From Sialis fuliginosa (Eukaryota > Arthropoda > Insecta > Megaloptera > Sialidae): DNA of 64,000 bases. Shown here piece after piece: positions 5,606-59,061 of this stretch (its first letter is position 1; each line of letters begins with the position of its first letter). The translations under genes and the position numbers were made by a program. Under the pieces are notes generated by a model. That model saw nothing but the letters and a program-made list of their open reading frames with translations. It was not told the DNA's origin and searched no databases. The DNA lies in the NCBI GenBank assembly GCA_961205875.1, contig OY540815.1, positions 23,249,638-23,313,637 on the forward strand, given 5' to 3'.

Positions 5606-5990
5606 TCTAAACTATCGATGTAAAAAATCTGAAAAAATTAAAAATCTGAAAAAATTCCAGAATGTATCTTTTAATTAGTACTTTCACTGAAAATTATAAC
5701 GAACACTCTCAAACATTTTTTGGACCTCCCTACCATAAACTGAAAAGGTTACTCACATTTTTTTTTCACTTACCCCATTAAGTGTGGTGTTTTTAAATAG
5801 GTCTTCTAAAATGCAACAAAAAATGTCAAATGACCTTTTGATTTTAACCCTTTAGTCACGATATATTTGCTTTTCAATGTGGTTATCAAAAAAAAATCTG
5901 AGAAAATTTCAGAATATAGTTTTTGAAACATTTTGGAATAACTCGTGGTGAGAATGACTACAGAACCCTATCAAGTGCGTGCCCAACACG
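5606..5990 (+). repeat. Hairpin-ended repeat family, truncated copy
   Basis: The sequence shares long words with 57780-59061: AACGAACACTCTCAAA, GGTCTTCTAAAATGCAACAA and TTTTGATTTTAACCCTTTAG. It ends in the same terminal hairpin, AAGTGCGTGCCCAACACGC, at about 5970-5988. The opposite end, AGGTTTCC hairpin, is missing, so the copy is truncated on the left. It is non-coding. Confidence 0.8.
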
Positions 5991-11660: not shown

Positions 11661-12547
11661 CAAGAAGCAAAAAAAAAAAAACTAAAGGAAAGAGAATTTA
11701 AATGACACTTTTAAAAGCTCACGTATTAATTTTATTACAACTCACAAAATAGCTGAGACGCGGATTGATTTCAAAAATTTTATATCGTCTAATTCTTTAA
11801 ATAACATTACGTTTCCAATTTGTCACCTAAGTACGCGTCCTCATAACTCCGCCGTAAAATCAACGTCGTTTGGCGCGAAATAAAACACGTTCTGGGGCCT
11901 TTGGAAATAAAAATTTCCAAACTTTAAATCTTTTATCTTCTCCCCCCGTTCCGCGCCCCCTCATTCCCATGACGGTGTCGCCTACTCGACCCTATTGACG
12001 GTAAACATTGATACCCGCTTGAACGAAGGTTATTTTGACAGGCCAGGCTTACAGAGTGTCTACTCGATTTATTAGGTCAAATATTAGTGCAGTTTTTTGT
12101 ACACTTTTAACTCTCAGAGTAAGAATCTTTATTTTACAAACGCACTGACTGATTTATTGATTTTATGGGGGACAGATCTAAATCTATGAAAAATATAATT
12201 ATTTTATTAATGTCAATTTGGTTAACTTCCCAACATATAGTATATTTATACTATTTTCAGAAAAATGTGTTTTTTACGTGCACGAAATCTTGCAAATAAA
12301 AAATTATATTGACTTCGTTGAGGTGCGAATAGAAGCATCTTGACGTGAATATGATCTGAAAGAAAGCATTTTTCGAAAGTCAACCCTTATGGTGGTAAAA
12401 GGGGATGTAAAAGTTTGTGTGAAAAAAAATATTTTTTTGGTCGAATTTACTTGACACTAAATTATTTTACAATACAAATAATGAAATATGTGTTTCAGTA
12501 TTTTTTTTGTTATACGTGCTTAAATTATTATATATTATTAATATTAA
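11661..12547. other. No gene seen; GC-richer patch
   Basis: From about 11825 to 12060 the sequence is GC-richer (CTCCGCCGTAAAATCAACG; CCCCCCGTTCCGCGCCCCC). It has no long open frame. It could be an old regulatory patch or a repeat not otherwise present in the window. Confidence 0.4.
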
Positions 12548-12606
12548 TTTTCATTTTTTTCAGGTAAGAAAATTGATTTAATAACCGAAAATGGACATTA
12601 GTAAGT
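12548..12606 (+). promoter_or_regulatory. Candidate recursive-splicing (ratchet) site with 37-nt exon
   Basis: A pyrimidine tract TTTTCATTTTTTTCAG ends at 12563 and is joined directly to a donor-like GTAAGA (12564-12569). A second, strong donor GTAAGT starts at 12601. The enclosed 37 bases (12564-12600) are open in one frame only, reading KKIDLITENGH with two bases left over at each side. Juxtaposed acceptor and donor followed by a further donor is the known layout of recursive splice sites in long introns. It might alternatively be a tiny ordinary exon or chance. No protein family is recognised. Confidence 0.4.
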
Positions 12607-13562
12607 TTTAATTAATATATTTATTATAAAATATTAAGTTTGATAAAATTATAAAAAACGATAAAATGAAAAAAAAAAATATTTTTGGAACTAATTGTAA
12701 GATGTGATATTTTATTCATGAAACTTTGAAATTTATTACATAAATTGTTGTTAGATTAAGAGCCTTTACCTTTGTTTAATTTGTTTCAATCATAATCTGT
12801 TTTTTTTTGCATGAAATTACGAAAAAAAATCGCATGGCATTTGTACATTAAATTAAAATTCTATTTAAAAGTTTGAATAAAAATAGCTGTAAATACAAAT
12901 CAAATGGATATTTTATTTTAAATTAGCCCGTGAGTACAGCGTTTTATATATAAGTATGTCCTAAATAATGTCGAAAAATATATTTTTTTAATTTAACAAA
13001 AAAATTTTTGCCTCGATTACATAATTAAATTTATATTTGTACCTAAATACCTAAGCAAAATAAGTAATTGTATAAAAACTGTCTGAAAGGGAGCTACAGA
13101 TCTCAAAAGACAAATATATTATAATTAATTATTATATTTTTACAAAAAAAAAAACAGTAGAATTGTTCGATATTATATTTTTATGAGGTATATTTGCTAA
13201 AGTGTTAATTAAAATTAAAAAAGTTTAAGATCGAATTATTAAAAATGTTTGAAATTATTTTATACTTTTTTTTAGTTGTATTATTTTGATGTCTACACTG
13301 TGAATATAATTATGAATTAATTAATAAATAATTACCAAGAATCGATGAAAATAACATACTTGAAAGTCATTATATATTTTTAATTGGAAAAATAAAAAAT
13401 GATTAAATTTTTTGTTTTTATAATATATTTTCTGTTTACAAGTATTTTTTAGTAGCAAAAAACTTGGACGGTTTAAATTAAGGGAAATATATCTTACATT
13501 CTTGTATATAACAACAATCTGTCTCTCTTTATATCATCTCTGATTGGTCAAAGACTCTAATA
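12607..13562. other. Very AT-rich stretch, no feature seen
   Basis: Almost wholly A/T with many homopolymer runs. It contains no plausible coding frame and no repeat partner that I could identify. Confidence 0.5.
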
Positions 13563-13938
13563 TACAGAATGAGTAAAAATTATGTAATATTGCTAATATT
13601 TTCTAGAATATTCATTATTTAAAAAATGTTTTTGTAAAAGTTTTTACAGAAACTATTCCCTATGTAATACTAATTGTATACAATTTAAAAAAAATAATAT
13701 TACACACTTTACAAAATGTATATATGTTGTATGAAAAAAATTAAGATCTTTTCATAAAATCAATAAAAAAGATATGTTAACATTTAAAAAAATAGAATTA
13801 GATGCTATAGTATCATAACTGATAGCAACATTTTTTTTTGAAGATAAGCATTACATAGAAAATAATTTCTCTAAAAAATTTTACTTTAAATAATGAATAT
13901 TTTAGAAAATATTTATTTATATTTTTACTCACCCTGTA
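13563..13938. mobile_element. 376-bp inverted-repeat element, TA-flanked
   Basis: The left end TACAGAATGAGTAAAAAT mirrors the right end ATTTTTACTCACCCTGTA. Inverted similarity continues inward (AATATTTTCTAGAATATTC; ATTCATTATTTAAA; CTATGTAATACTAAT against its partner). TA lies at both borders (13561-13562 and 13939-13940). Terminal TACAGGGTG is usual for mariner-like miniature elements. There is no internal protein frame. Confidence 0.8.
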
Positions 13939-14429
13939 TATATATTATTTGTGAAATTTACAATAAATTCTCCGTGTGTGGTGGGACGAAGGGGAGCGGG
14001 GGGGGGGGGGCAATGTTAATTAGGTTAGTATAAAAAAGCTACATTATTATATTATTCAATACTGTAAATTCTAAATGTAGTGATTACTCATCCCCCAGCT
14101 TTGAACTTCAAAATTATACTCCAGGTTCCAAAGAAATAGATTTACATACAACCGTTTTCATAAAAACCAAACAAAGACCTGAAGAAAGTAAATAGTTACA
14201 ACTTTCCAGTTTAATTCCGTTCCTTGATTGCACAGAGAGAGAGAGGAAGTACTTTCTTTATCTTCTTGTCGCACTCATTATAGTATCCATGCCCCTAAAC
14301 TCCCATACCATAACTACTAGCAATGAACTGATATTGATGAGTAATAAAAACACACTAACGCCGGCCCTGGAACGGATGTTAAGGTACGTTTACACGTACA
14401 TAATCCTCGATTTGTTAAAATTTTGCTGG
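13939..14429. other. No gene seen; G-run and GA run
   Basis: Contains a run of about 10 G near 14000 (GGGGGGGGGG) and a GAGAGAGAGAG run near 14236. Nothing else is recognisable. Confidence 0.5.
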
Positions 14430-23886: not shown

Positions 23887-24585
23887 CCCGGGAAAAAATT
23901 TCAGATCTGAAGTGATCTCGGTTGATCTTCATTTTGGAACAAATCAGATCTTTGTAGATAAATAAACTTTTGTCTACCTTAAATAACAAATTAATACACA
24001 TATACTATATAGAAACCTTGTTTATAATTTAATCAATTAAAAAAAAATTGTACAGAAACGTATTGAATGATATTTGAGGCCCATGTATTAAATTAATAAA
24101 TAAATTCACAACTCACCCCCTGTCACAAATGAAGGGTTGTAATTGGTCTCATTCGATTCAGCGGGAAAAATACTTCGGGATACTAGGTGAATTTTTCTCT
24201 GTTTCGCTACTTATGGTATTCATTATAGAAAATCGTAAATATATCGACTCCTGTGCAAGATAGAGGGTTGTTTTGCCCCCCACACCCCTAGTATCCCGAA
24301 GTATTTTTCCCGCTGGATCGAATGAGACATTACAACCCTTAATCTGTAACAGGGGGTAAGTTGTGAATTTATTTATTAATTTAATACACGGGCCTCAAAT
24401 ATCATTCAATACGTTTCTGTACAATTTTTTTTTAATTGATTAAATTATAAACAAGGTTTCTATATAGGTAGTATATGTGTATTTGTTATTTAAGGTAGAC
24501 AAAAGTTTATTTATTTACAAAGATCTGATTTGTTCCAAAATGAAGATCAACCGAGATCACTTCAGATCTGAAATTTTTTCCCGGG
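23887..24585. mobile_element. 699-bp inverted repeat (fold-back element)
   Basis: Left arm 23887-24187 and right arm 24287-24585 are reverse complements with few differences, around a 99-bp spacer. The outer ends are CCCGGGAAAAAATTTCAGAT and its complement ending in CCCGGG. Inner ends meet at GGGATACTAGG and CCTAGTATCCC. No transposase frame is present. The spacer shares CGTAAATATATCGACTCC with the repeat at 19949-20130. Confidence 0.9.
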
Positions 24586-25559: not shown

Positions 25560-25965
25560 TTTATCTTTAAGATTAATTTTCAACCGGAAATCGATGTTTA
25601 CTCTTATTTTTAAAACAGTGCGAATTCGAAAAAAAAAAAAAAATTGTCGATTTTTGGTCAAAACTTTTTTGTCTGGTTTTGAAGTATTATAGGTATATGT
25701 CATTATATAGATTTTGACACTCTGGTTTCAAATTCGTCAACTAAAATCAATTCCAAAAGTTACTGCTATTTTTATCAAAAATTTTGATAAAACTGAAACT
25801 TTGAGAGGCCATATCTCGAAAACGGTTTGAGATACAGGCCTGCGGTTTGAAGTTTCAACCTTTCACATTATTTTCTATATAAAAAACATACTTTTAACGA
25901 AATCTAGAACTAAAAAATTTTTAGTCAACTTTCATGATTTTAATTTCCCTTTTCATAGAAATTTT
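25560..25965 (+). repeat. Single right arm of the 34238-34961 fold-back family
   Basis: TCATTATATAGATTTTGACA, CGTCAACTAAAATCAATTCC, AACTTTGAGAGGCCATATCT and GAGATACAGGCCTGCGGTTT match the right arm at 34660-34830 in order. The left arm is absent. At 25560-25600 GATTAATTTTCAACCGGAAA links it to the GTCT-bearing family instead, so two repeats abut here. Confidence 0.8.
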
Positions 25966-31910: not shown

Positions 31911-32263
31911 GGCCAAGTGCGTGTTGGGCACGCACATGATAGGTTTCCGGGGGGACGCTCTGATAACGACATTTAAATGCAAATATATCGTGACTGAAGG
32001 GTTAAAATCAAAATGTCATATTACATTTTAGGAGACCTATCTGAAGGCACCCTACTTAATGGATAAAGTGAAAAATTTAAAAAAAAAATACTTTTTAGAC
32101 TATGGAAAGGGGGTCCAAAAACTTTTTTTTTCAAAAATATTATCATTTCTGTTTTTGGGTTATCAGTCTTCGTCCGTATACCAAATTTCATCTTAATCGG
32201 CTTAAAAATTTTGAGGACGGACATGGCGAAACTATAAGGTTTCCTAGTTTTCTACGGAAACCT
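31911..32263 (-). repeat. Hairpin-ended repeat family A, complete short copy
   Basis: One end is GTGCGTG-TTGGG-CACGCAC (31917-31935, 7-bp stem). The other is AGGTTTCC-11 nt-GGAAACCT (32237-32263, 8-bp stem). Between them lie AAATATATCGTGACTGAAGG, TTAGGAGACCTATCTG and GACGGACATGGCGAAACTAT. The same parts in the same order, on the other strand, make up 57780-59061. No frame is conserved, so it is a non-autonomous repeat of unassigned class. Confidence 0.8.
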
Positions 32264-32589
32264 AAAAAGTAAATTTTCCCATTTTAATCAAATGGTTTGC
32301 GCCGTCCACAGGTTTGATCTATGAGTCCGAAATTTTGGGATAATTAACTCTTGATCCAAAGCTAAAACATAGGCCTGTGAAACCGAAAAAAAAAAACAAA
32401 AAAAAAACACCCTAATAAACATATATAAATTAGGGTACGTACTACAGTCCCCCTAAAACCTACTTGAGTTACGCCACTGTGCCAGATGGTGATGTATGTC
32501 GTTCTTTGGTTTATGGCGCACGTTGAACGAGGCGGTGTTTGTCTTGTAATGCACTCCACGCGCCCGTGGAGCGCCTTGCGCGCGTATTT

Positions 32590-34237: not shown

Positions 34238-34961
34238 TACGTCTTATTTTCTTGTATTTTAGTCGATATTTGTATGACGAGTTGTAGGAAATTTCACTAA
34301 AAAAATTAGAATTTTTGATTTCGTTAAAAGTATGTTTATTGTATAGAAAATGACGTGAAAAGTTGTTTGTTTCAAACCGCAGGTCTGTATCTTAAACCGT
34401 TCTCGAGATATAGCCTCTCAAAGTTTTAGTTTTTTCAAGTTTTTGGAGAAAAAAGGCCATAACTTTTGAACGAGTGGTCGGAATTGATTTTAGTTAACGG
34501 ATTTGGAATCAGCGTGTCAAAATCTATATAATGACATGTATAATACCTTAAAACTCGGAAAAAAAATTTTCGCGAAAAATCGAAAAAATTCAAAGGGGTA
34601 TACCTTAAAAAAATGTCGATTTTTGATGAAAATTTTTTTGTCGGATTTTAAAGTATTATACATGTCATTATATAGATTTTGACATGTTGATTCCAAATCC
34701 GTCAACTAAAATCAATTCCGACCACGCGTTCAAAAGTTATGGCCTTTTTTCTCCAAAAATTTGAAAAAACTAAAACTTTGAGAGGCTATATCTCGAGAAC
34801 GGTTTGAGATACAGACCTGCGGTTTGAACCAAACAACTTTTCACGTCATTTTCTATACAATAAACATACTTTTAACAAAATCAAAAATTCTAAATTTTTT
34901 AGTGAAATTTCCTGCAACTCGTCATACAAATATCGACTAAAATACAAGAAAATAAGACGTA
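34238..34961. mobile_element. 724-bp near-palindrome (fold-back element)
   Basis: The arms 34238-34571 and 34628-34961 are reverse complements over about 334 bp with few mismatches, around a spacer of about 56 bp. Outer ends are TACGTCTTATTTTCTTG and its complement CAAGAAAATAAGACGTA, with TA at each border as for Tc1/mariner-type insertions. Arms hold CAGGTCTGTATCTTAAACCG and CTCGAGATATAGCC. No protein frame is conserved. Relatives: 17285-17405, 25560-25965, 50850-50990, 54775-55202. Confidence 0.9.
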
Positions 34962-39361: not shown

Positions 39362-40085
39362 TTTTTCTTAAATTTTTTTTTTCTTTCGAGTAGCGTATCT
39401 TCGAAGACCATGGTCAGATTCTGATAAAATTTTTATGGGACCACCTCGGGAGTATACTCTTTCAAACAAACAAAACAGCATCCAAATCGGTCCATATTTG
39501 TCGAAGTTATAATATTTTTTCGAAACGAATACCTTTTATTTTTTTAAAGTCTGTTAAAAATCAATCAAAATATAAAGATGTATATTGAATATATTTGTAA
39601 AGATAATTCTGAAGTTAAATTGATTAATAGTTATTTTTCCGAATCGAGAAATTCCTCCTTTTTAAAAAATCTATCAAACTATGAATGTTCATATTGTAGA
39701 TATATATTTGAAAAGATATTTCTGAAGTTAATATGATTAATAGTTCCTATGTCATTAAATTATTCATATAAATAATTCTGTTTGCTTGTTAGTTGGGAAT
39801 GGACCCTGTTACACATATCTATACATTTCATTGATGTGTTTACATTTGTAGGTGTGTTTATGTGTAACCCACTGATGAATTAATTCAATTTTTAGCTACA
39901 TGTAAATATAATTTCGCCTGCATCGCTTGATAGCACACGGTACATATTAATAAACAGGTGTACAATGTTTATTTTTTAACATATGTGTCACATACCTATT
40001 ATTAAATCGATATATTGTGCCTCTAATTAAATAATGTTCTGAATTCTGGCATTTGTCTATATAGAACTATCGTGCTTAACTTGAA
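39362..40085. other. No gene seen; diverged local duplication
   Basis: At 39590-39740 the phrase AAAGATAATTCTGAAGTTAA and TTGATTAATAGTT recurs about 120 bp later as AAAGATATTTCTGAAGTTAA and ATGATTAATAGTT. ATCGGTCCATATTTGTCGAA near 39487 resembles common insect repeats. Confidence 0.5.
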
Positions 40086-49130: not shown

Positions 49131-49405
49131 CCTACTTTTCAGTTTTTTTTAAGTCGGTTGTATTTTTTTTCTTAAATTTTTTTTTATTAAATGAATAAAG
49201 TAAATAAAAATCTATCTTTTTTTATATAATTGGTCGATTTGTCTTCTGGACAACTCAAGTTTACAAATGTATATTTTCTCGCCCATTTATTATAAACCCA
49301 TTCTTTATTTTGATGAGGGTATAATTATATAAGTAATATATGAATGTATGTATAATAATTATTAATAATAGATGATTTATTTAAATTTAATACGACTTAT
49401 TACAA
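49131..49405. other. AT-rich spacer
   Basis: TTTTTTTTAAGTCGGTTGTA near 49146 recalls the arms at 39241-39260. Nothing else is recognised. Confidence 0.4.
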
Positions 49406-49490
49406 TGTTATTTATCTTCGTTTCAGGTATGTGGAGAATTTACTTCAGTATAAAAACTCATTGTCAGAAATAACCAACCCATTTGTAAGT
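49406..49490 (+). promoter_or_regulatory. Candidate recursive-splicing site or 58-nt exon
   Basis: TTATTTATCTTCGTTTCAG (ending 49426) is joined directly to a donor-like GTATGT, and a strong donor GTAAGT starts at 49485. The 58 bases between (49427-49484) are open in one frame, giving YVENLLQYKNSLSEITNPF after one leftover base. If the candidate at 12564-12600 were spliced straight to this one, the joint would read TAG, so they cannot be consecutive coding exons in these frames. Either a ratchet site with its short exon or a real small exon is possible; the peptide matches no family I recognise. Confidence 0.45.
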
Positions 49491-54774: not shown

Positions 54775-55202
54775 ACTCAAAGTTTCAAATTTTCCAAAAT
54801 TTTGAAGAAAAATGGCCATAACATTTAAACGGGTCATCGGATTTGATTTTTGTCGACGGATTTGAAATCAGAGTGTCGAAATCTATATAATTACATGTAT
54901 AATACTTGAAAACTCGACAAAAAAATTTTCGCGAAAAATTGAAAAAAAATTCAAAAATGTCGATTATTGACCAAAAATTTTTTGTCGAGTTTTCGAGTGT
55001 TATACATGTAATTATATAGATTTTGACACTCTGATTTCAAATCTGTCGACAAAAATCAAATCCGATAACCCGTTCAAATGTTATGGCCATTTTTCTTCAA
55101 AATTTTGGAAAATCTGAAACTTTGAGAGGCCATATCTCGAGAACGATTTGAGATACAGACCTGTGGTTTGAAAAATTCTACTTTTTACGTCATTTTCTAT
55201 AT
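54775..55202. mobile_element. Fold-back element, second copy of the 34238 family
   Basis: Arms of about 150 bp run from CTCAAAGTTTCAAATTTTCC to AACTCGACAAAAAAATTTT and back from AAAAATTTTTTGTCGAGTTT to GAAACTTTGAGAG. The right side continues to 55202 (GAGATACAGACCTGTGGTTT, TTTACGTCATTTTCTATA), while the left is truncated at the Helitron-like fragment. Confidence 0.88.
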
Positions 55203-56880
55203 ATTAATTAATTATCATCTACATGAGGGAGAAATTTAATAAACTTATTGAAAAAAATATAGAATAATAAACCTTAACACGATATATTTTTTTATTTTAC
55301 ATAAAAGACTCTTTTTTTATTTACAAGTGGGGGAGAGGGAGGGCATTTAAAAAAACGTAATTTTATTTATTTTGTATAACTTTTAAAATAAATATATAAA
55401 CTATATAAGAAGTAGAAACTGAGAAATGTTATTATTTAATTTATTATATACTAGAATGTATAATTTTGAAAATTTATCAGAGACTTAAAGTGTTAATTTG
55501 ACAAGCAACACGGATCACTGATATAGTAACTTAACTTTAACTTTAAAAAAAAACTAATTTTAAAATAGGCTTGTCATATTAAAGTTCCATGAATAATATT
55601 TTTGAAATGTGTAACGTATTATACACAAACGTCTTATCAAGATTCGGCCACACGAAGGCAGTGAATATTAAATAATATATATCTACATAAAAAAAGTACA
55701 AAGAACTAAACATTTTTTTTCATTATTTGAAAATGTAACTATTTCCGTTGACAGGACAATTTAAAAAAAATTAAACTTGCCCAAAACCGTACGTATTTTT
55801 AACAAATTTTTATTTCAATTTTGGGAACCTCCATGGGCAATGATAATTTTTTTTTGATAAATCTAATTAATCACTTTTGTAGATTAGACTTTTCTTTTCA
55901 ATTTGTATTTTTTTGTATCGCTGTACGATCATTTTTGACTGAGTTATTTGCAATTAAAGCAAAAACCACATTTCATTTTTGAATGCTTAAAAAATTCAGC
56001 GTTTTTTTCATACTCGATACAAAAATAGTAATTGGTCCAAAAAATTATCACGACCCTGAGAGGCTCTCAAAATAGATATAAATGTACACAATTTGTTGTA
56101 AGTCAAAACAATATGGTTTATATAACAAAAACAAAAATAAATTAATAATTTAATACAAAATCAAAATCTCCGTAATCCCTGCTGTAATACATACTACCAA
56201 CATAAAGATCAATAAAAACAAAATCCCCAGCGCACATTAATCACGAAAAGTTTTGAAATGTTAAACAGCAATTAATATTATTAAAAAAAAGAACTTTTTT
56301 ATAATATATTTATACTGCGAATATGAAAAATGATGGCACAAGAGAGATATAGCAATAAAAACATCTGTTTTGTGTTTATCGTTAACATTATATTGTGTAT
56401 GAGTGGATGTTATGTATCATTATGTCCAACATTAACTGACATATTATACCCGTGTATGGATATAAGTGTAATTGCTTTCGTAGCAATTTATTCATTATTA
56501 TAATATGTTGGACTGTGCCTGCGCGATTATTTATAATTACCATTATATTATCACTGTTTGTGCTTGATACAAGTGATTTTAGCTATGTTCATTTCATTCT
56601 ATTCAGTTATTAGCAGTTTACCGCGGCTTCATTCGCGTGTATCTTCAAATCAATGTTACTTATTTTACCCCCCTCCCTCCCTCCACCCCTACGTATTATC
56701 TACTTGTCCATTTGTACCCCCCCCCTTTACAATGTATTTTTGAAATTGTCTTTTGATATAATGGGTTTTGATGATTTTTTTAATAACGATATGCCGTCCA
56801 AGGCTGCCATTTTGAATTTTATAACCCCCTTTAATTTGTAGACATTAAAGACGAACTCTTTTTAAATAATTTTTAATATA
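55203..56880. other. Long AT-rich stretch, no gene seen
   Basis: A G-rich patch at 55328 and C-runs at 56668 and 56718 are the only landmarks. Frames at 56558 and 56653 overlap one another in the C-rich part and are unsupported. Confidence 0.5.
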
Positions 56881-57779: not shown

Positions 57780-59061
57780 AGGTTTCCGTAGAAAACTAGG
57801 AAACCTTATAGTTTCGCCATGTCCGTCCGTCCGTCCGTCCGTCCGTCCGTCCGTCCTCAAAAATTTTAAGCCGATTAAGATGAAATTTGGTATACATACG
57901 AACACTGATCACCCAAAAACAGAAATGATAATATTTTTGAAAAAAACATTTTTTTGGACCCCCTTTCCATAGACTAAAAAGTATTTTCAAAAAAATTTTT
58001 TCGCTTAATACATTAAGTGGGATGTCTTTAGATAGGTCTCCTAAAATGCAATAAAAAATGCAATATGACATTTTGATTTTAACCCTTCAGTCACGATATA
58101 TTTGCGTTCAAAGTCGTGATAAAAGCGTCCCCCCCCCTCTAATTTCTAAACTATCAATTTAAAAAATCTGAAAAAATTCATGAATGTAACCTTTAATTAG
58201 TACTTCCACTGAAAATTATAACGAACACTGTCAAAATTATTTTGGACCCCCCTCCCATAGACTGAAAAGTAAACTCACAATTTTTTTTTCACATATTCCA
58301 TTGATTGGGGGGTCATTGGATAGGTCTCCTAAAATGCAACAAATAATGTTAAATGACCTTTTGATTTTAACCCTTCAGTCACGATATATTTGCATTTAAA
58401 TGTCGTTATCAAAGCGTCTTCCCCCCTTAATTTCTAAACTATCTTTTCAAAAAATCTGAAAAAAATTTAAAATGTAGCTTTCAATTAGTACTTCCACTGA
58501 AAATTATATCGAACACTCTCAAAATTATTTTGGACCCCCCTCCCATAGACTGAAAAATGAACTCACATTTTTTTTTCACTTAACCCATTGAGTGAGTGGT
58601 CATTGGATAGGTCTCCTAAAATGCAACAAATAATGTTAAATGATCTTTTGATTTTAACCCTTCAGTCAAAATATATTTGCATTTAAATGTCGTTATCAAA
58701 GCGTCCCCCCCACCCTAATTTCTAAACTATCTATTCAAAAAATCTGAAAAAAATTCAGAATGTAGCTTTGAATTAGTACTTTCACTGAAAATTATAACGA
58801 ACACTATCAAAATTATTTTGGACCCCCTCCCATAGACTGAAAATTGTACTCAAATTTTTTTTCACTTACCCCATTGAGTGGGGTATCTTTAGATAGGTCT
58901 CCTAAAATACAACAAAAAATGTTATATGACATTTTGATTTTAACCCTTCAGTCACGATATATTTGCATTTAAATGTCGTTATCAGAGCGTCCGTTGAAAT
59001 AACTCTTGTTTATAAATCGTAATGACTACGGAAACCTATCATGTGCGTGCCCAACACGCAC
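57780..59061 (+). repeat. Hairpin-ended family A, copy enlarged by internal tandem repeats
   Basis: It starts with the hairpin AGGTTTCC-11 nt-GGAAACCT (57780-57806), then a GTCC microsatellite (57820-57855), and ends with GTGCGTG-CCCAA-CACGCAC (59043-59061). Internally TTTTGATTTTAACCCTTCAG recurs at 58071, 58359, 58646 and 58932, giving three tandem units of 288, 287 and 286 bp. The short copy at 31911-32263 has one such word. Frames on the minus strand are not conserved. Confidence 0.9.

Follow-up and report, generated by a model that had tools for sequence, protein, structure and literature searches.

Does the point in the Sialis fuliginosa genome at which an acceptor CAG runs directly into a GTAAGA donor mark a site where a very long intron is removed in steps? 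We addressed this question in a window of 64,000 nucleotides of contig OY540815.1, the whole stretch of DNA that was analysed; positions are counted from its first letter. On the evidence set out below, the balance tips modestly towards 12563/12564 being a recursive-splicing site within a very long plus-strand intron that would be removed stepwise, with a probable second site at 49427. Recursive splice sites are well documented in fruit flies, and the candidate is therefore probably an ordinary further example of an established site type. If it is real, sequence alone will have sufficed to predict one recursive splice site and perhaps a second, and the cryptic-exon model known from Drosophila ratchet points will extend to another genome; otherwise, we are looking at ordinary long-intron biology, or at chance.

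At 12563/12564 on the plus strand, the acceptor TTTTTTTCAG abuts GTAAGA, and the complete arrangement of fused site, short exon and exon donor (cassette 1) reads ...attaattttcatttttttcag/gtaagaaaattgatttaataaccgaaaatggacatta/gtaagtttt. A preliminary description of this DNA had reported a CAG ending at 12563 and fused to a GTAAGA from 12564, with a second donor, GTAAGT, 37 nt on at 12601, and the sequence bears out both points. It had also spoken of a long pyrimidine tract, which overstates the case: the tract directly before the CAG is short, consisting of seven T with TTTTCA ahead of them. The nearest other AG lies 63 nt upstream of the acceptor and the zone between them is free of AG; AG-to-AG gaps as long as this one make up about 6.8% within the window. 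The branch-point-like TTAAT would place its A at -17 or -23. Among the window's 2-kb steps, the one around the cassette (12001-14000) is the poorest in G+C (22.3%), and its GC skew is the most positive (+0.139). A 35-nt low-complexity tandem lies beyond the cassette at 12642-12676. RNA folding of 12500-12660 was no more stable than that of shuffled sequences (z 0.42). The features of this cassette, and of the second one described below, are collected in Table 1.

Table 1. Positions of the elements of the two candidate recursive-splicing cassettes in the window.
Feature	Positions	Strand	Basis or remark
3' splice-site region, cassette 1	12499..12563	+	branch-like TTAAT, pyrimidine tract, CAG
Putative ratchet-point donor GTAAGA, cassette 1, fused to acceptor	12564..12569	+	sequence, matrix scores
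Candidate RS-exon A, 37 nt, 1 mod 3	12564..12600	+	one open frame
Putative own donor of RS-exon A, TTA/GTAAGT	12601..12606	+	sequence, donor scores
3' splice-site region, cassette 2	49372..49426	+	pyrimidine-rich TTATTTATCTTCGTTTCAG; other AG absent for 53 nt
Putative ratchet-point donor GTATGT, cassette 2, fused to acceptor	49427..49432	+	matrix scores
Candidate RS-exon B, 58 nt, 1 mod 3	49427..49484	+	one open frame
Putative own donor of RS-exon B, TTT/GTAAGT	49485..49490	+	sequence, donor scores

Acceptors and donors were scored with matrices of Drosophila-like frequencies, which are approximations. By matrix score, 12563/12564 ranks first among the 172 AG/GTR sites of both strands (88 plus, 84 minus); 3' and 5' splice sites are juxtaposed here around AG/GT, and the 3' half is strong. 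We also computed, with our own matrix, a linear percent score patterned after that of PMC2773006; on it, the site reaches 83.4% and is the sole AG/GT above 80% among 327 (161 plus, 166 minus). Tract and core together (YYYYYNCAGGTAAG) were found once, against 0.01 expected. Equal or better fused sites appeared in 3/100, 5/100 and 2/100 strands simulated with Markov models of order 1, 2 and 3, respectively, and in 6/400 and 8/400 Markov strands of local composition.

The alternative that survives best is chance, namely that AT-rich intergenic or intronic DNA happens to contain a fused site with GTAAGT words close by, none of which acts in splicing. We think this unlikely, but it has to be taken seriously. 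By itself, the motif YAGGTRAG occurs about as often as chance predicts (3 times against 3.5 expected over both strands), and since bare motif counts showed no excess, matrix scores were preferred. By those scores, the first fused site is unusual, being matched in 1.5-5% of simulated 64-kb strands, a figure that applies to a site selected out of the whole window.

If 12564 is read as a ratchet point, further ratchet points may sit on the plus strand. The layout is indeed repeated on that strand about 37 kb further on, where TTCGTTTCAG is joined to GTATGT at 49426/49427 and GTAAGT follows at 49485. This is the second-best fused site on either strand (15.6 bits), with a linear score of 73.3%, below the 80% mark. 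Taken alone, such a site is common by chance, as a fused site of at least 15.5 bits was present in 60/400 and 92/400 local-Markov strands; a role for cassette 2 as a second recursive-splicing site is plausible. The third-best fused site, at 39852 on the plus strand (TTTGTAG/GTGTGT, 14.1 bits), is a weaker candidate ratchet point; its downstream donors are moderate, and it was left out of the cassette tally. Acceptors of at least 9 bits are without strand bias (37 versus 34). GTAAGT occurs 23 times on the plus strand and 12 times on the minus strand of the window; for GTRAGT the counts are 30 and 30.

How much the pair of cassettes weighs against chance depends on how the second donor is scored. 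We defined the cassette score by adding to the value of the fused site that of the best donor lying 20-120 nt further on. When only the intronic half of that donor was counted, a choice adopted after the GTAAGT had been noticed, the two cassettes scored 27.7 and 25.0, and the next candidates 19.3 (minus strand) and 18.5 (plus strand). Simulation of 600 order-2 strands yielded, per strand, 0.0033 sites scoring at least 27.7 and 0.0217 scoring at least 24.9, and no strand with two cassettes; among 800 local-Markov strands, 24.9 was attained in 14 and 27.7 in none, and not one contained two cassettes. Two cassettes of at least 24.9 were therefore seen in 0/1,400 simulated strands, which speaks against chance; a reversed real strand, scored in the same way, reached 23.8. 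The exon sides TTA and TTT, however, are poor and are left out of the intronic-half score, so that the whole-donor control strips most of the statistical weight from the pair. With whole donors, the cassettes score 23.1 and 20.1 and are the window's top two (third 18.7 on the plus strand, best on the minus strand 17.5). Yet 23.1 was reached in 30/400 and 43/400 simulated strands, pairs of at least 20.1 occurred in 28/400 and 41/400, as the chance explanation would have it, and the two reversed real strands reached 21.9 and 22.2. The first fused site is thus unusual in itself, and the GTAAGT downstream adds rarity only if the poor exon side TTA is omitted. The same-strand pair is suggestive, not proof; what survives the whole-donor control is that the first fused site is rare, at the level given above, and that both cassettes contain a consensus GTAAGT.

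Published counts also bear on chance. In Table 2 of PMC2773006, the density of ratchet sites in large introns is 2.196 per 100 kb in fly, 1.029 in mosquito, 0.484 in bee and 0.807 in beetle, several-fold more than on the complementary strands (0.101, 0, 0.122 and 0.101, respectively); in fly, such sites are 29.7-fold more frequent in these introns than in intergenic DNA. Given an insect host, this enrichment makes a genuine site likelier once a strong one has been seen. The first site shares its motif class with the ratchet sites of fly, mosquito, bee, beetle and sea urchin large introns in that table, and the density found here, one site above 80% per 64 kb with our own matrix, falls inside the range of 0.48-2.2 per 100 kb in PMC2773006. 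That study counted motifs, whereas the candidate sites here additionally carry a putative downstream exon donor.

A further alternative is that one or both of the short segments are expressed exons that start with GTAAG and are kept in the mRNA, be it as coding microexons or as a 5'-leader exon with the ATG at 12591, and be it constitutively or as included RS-exons in the manner of Ubx m1/m2. We consider this improbable. Each segment does have one open frame (KKIDLITENGH in exon A), each is followed by a consensus intronic donor half, and the ATG at 12591 stands in the context AAAATGG, which resembles an insect start context. Against this, a coding signal is absent from both. The log-odds of exon A (0.07 bits) were equalled by 24.6% of 4,000 random open stretches, and those of exon B (-3.84 bits) by 51.3% of 4,000. 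Neither the frame-preserving length nor the coding content of the Ubx m1/m2 type was found, as the two lengths are 37 and 58 nt and the coding scores are random-like. Joined to each other, A and B contain a stop in each of the three reading frames; in the one that is open in both exons, the stop is a TAG created where they meet. Lengths of 1 mod 3, random-like scores and joined stops together argue against ordinary coding microexons and agree with cryptic RS-exons.

Homology pointed the same way. The 20-aa reading of exon B had no match in a PDB search at E up to 10. A lead to the IQGAP1 CH domain, from a 51-aa frame through exon B (E 0.39-0.62), appeared only when the pyrimidine tract was included and was rejected; another frame of the same stretch was matchless, and neighbouring CH-like stretches, judged by pattern, were unconvincing. 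A literature search with the peptide letters returned no matching paper. A point against the ratchet reading is that neither cassette was listed in a search for ordinary exons from splice-site pairs with a 5-bit whole-donor limit; none of the 14 candidates per strand that such pairs gave was convincing.

If the cassettes are recursive-splicing sites, the fate of the short exons would turn on competition between two donors. With CAG before them, the full ratchet donors score well above the exon donors (GTAAGA 11.8 versus 4.8 bits for exon A; GTATGT 11.2 versus 4.5 bits for exon B). By intronic halves only, the order is reversed, with 7.3 (A) and 6.8 (B) for the ratchet donors versus 9.4 for each exon donor. 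Because the two scores disagree, the outcome would depend on the end of the upstream exon, and since the intronic halves favour the exon donors, a poor upstream exon end could let inclusion win. The two downstream GTAAGT, at 37 and 58 nt, match the consensus in their intronic halves and are weak as whole donors; when whole donors are scored, chance produces comparable pairs fairly readily. Their weakness does not contradict the ratchet reading, because the published cryptic RS-exon model expects it: as the model is set out in PMC8605326, RS-exons are about 50 nt long, have their own downstream donor and are generally out of frame and skipped, and the ratchet donor is generally the stronger of the two.

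We infer that, if the ratchet reading is correct, the window would be transcribed from the plus strand and lie inside a very long intron, perhaps being wholly one intron, that is removed stepwise via 12564 and probably then via 49427. A cryptic exon of 37 or 58 nt, bounded by the strong acceptor and the downstream GTAAGT, would first be recognised by exon definition. Joining of the upstream exon to the 5' end of this cryptic exon would recreate a donor (exon end/GTAAGA, and later exon end/GTATGT), and the recreated donor would usually beat the cryptic exon's own. The short exon would then leave with the next piece of intron, and the final mRNA would keep none of its sequence.

The cassettes resemble the cryptic RS-exons at Drosophila intronic ratchet points, as these are described in PMC8605326 and PMC6110457. 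The latter reports recursive sites in most fly introns longer than 40 kb, with several sites in 98 introns. Like the ratchet points of kuz, Bx and Ubx-RP (PMC8605326), the cassettes combine a fused acceptor-donor with a short, frame-breaking candidate exon that has its own putative donor, they sit in a long non-coding context, possibly several to a locus, and, given an upstream exon ending in CAG, the ratchet donor is predicted to be the stronger of their two donors. Unlike the RS-exons of about 50 nt in that paper, candidate exon A is shorter (37 nt); the putative ratchet donors also differ, being GTAAGA and GTATGT here and GTAAGT there. The likeness to Ubx m1 and m2 (Hatton et al. 1998, via PMC8605326) lies in two short donor-starting exons within one long region, but m1 and m2 are frame-preserving at 51 nt, whereas A and B, at 37 and 58 nt, are frame-breaking and carry no coding signal. 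For insects other than flies, literature searches turned up only PMC2773006 and an ELAV paper on the bee (PMC8553928), whose passage on recursive splicing names it just to exclude it for one exon.

A bolder idea is that the cassettes work together as one regulatory unit. The single frame in which each exon can be read differs between the two, and joint inclusion would give the junction TAG in the only frame still open, so that regulated donor choice at the two ratchet points might turn a gene with a long intron down in graded steps through nonsense-mediated decay, perhaps in an organism other than the fly models. We give this far-reaching proposal very little credence.

The surroundings were searched with Pfam in six frames, with stops as X, over both strands of 1-59,699 in 24 pieces, a search that single short exons can escape. 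Neither genes nor a flanking exon were found on either strand over these 59.7 kb beyond one mariner-type transposase fragment (Transposase_1, PF01359; 21199-21303, plus strand, E 1.7e-06), the sole accepted family there. Three sub-threshold matches on the minus strand (E 0.064, 0.24 and 0.14) were taken as noise. Rfam gave nothing at the gathering score and ARAGORN no tRNA in the window, a scan for bacterial promoters is meaningless for DNA of this kind, and an exact search for a 49-nt pattern in viral contigs found it absent. The window has the non-coding look to be expected of a giant intron, and intergenic DNA would fit the Pfam result equally well. The earlier proposal that the fused site is of the ratchet type, in a long plus-strand intron removed in steps, is supported in part: the layout is what one would expect of an intronic ratchet point that carries a cryptic RS-exon, and Pfam shows no gene over 1-59.7 kb. 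The support that cassette 2 adds by repeating the layout on the plus strand varies with the scoring.

That a mobile element brought in the splice cassette is scarcely credible, for although repeats within the window (E 1e-8 or better) cover 23.4% of it and a transposase fragment is present, none of these repeats falls in 11800-13400, comparison of 12300-12900 with the rest of the window gave matches of 14-34 nt only (best E 0.009), and the 35-nt tandem near cassette 1 lies outside it. Elsewhere in the window, a tandem array at 57948-58992 holds 3.6 copies of a 288-bp unit that also recurs singly elsewhere, at 5640-5890 and, in inverted orientation, at 31949-32268. A palindromic repeat family is represented at 34336-34863, with copies at about 25623-25936 and 54776-55207. 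An inverted repeat at 23887-24585, with arms of about 300 bp that are 94% alike and 99 bp apart, is likely a hairpin-type element.
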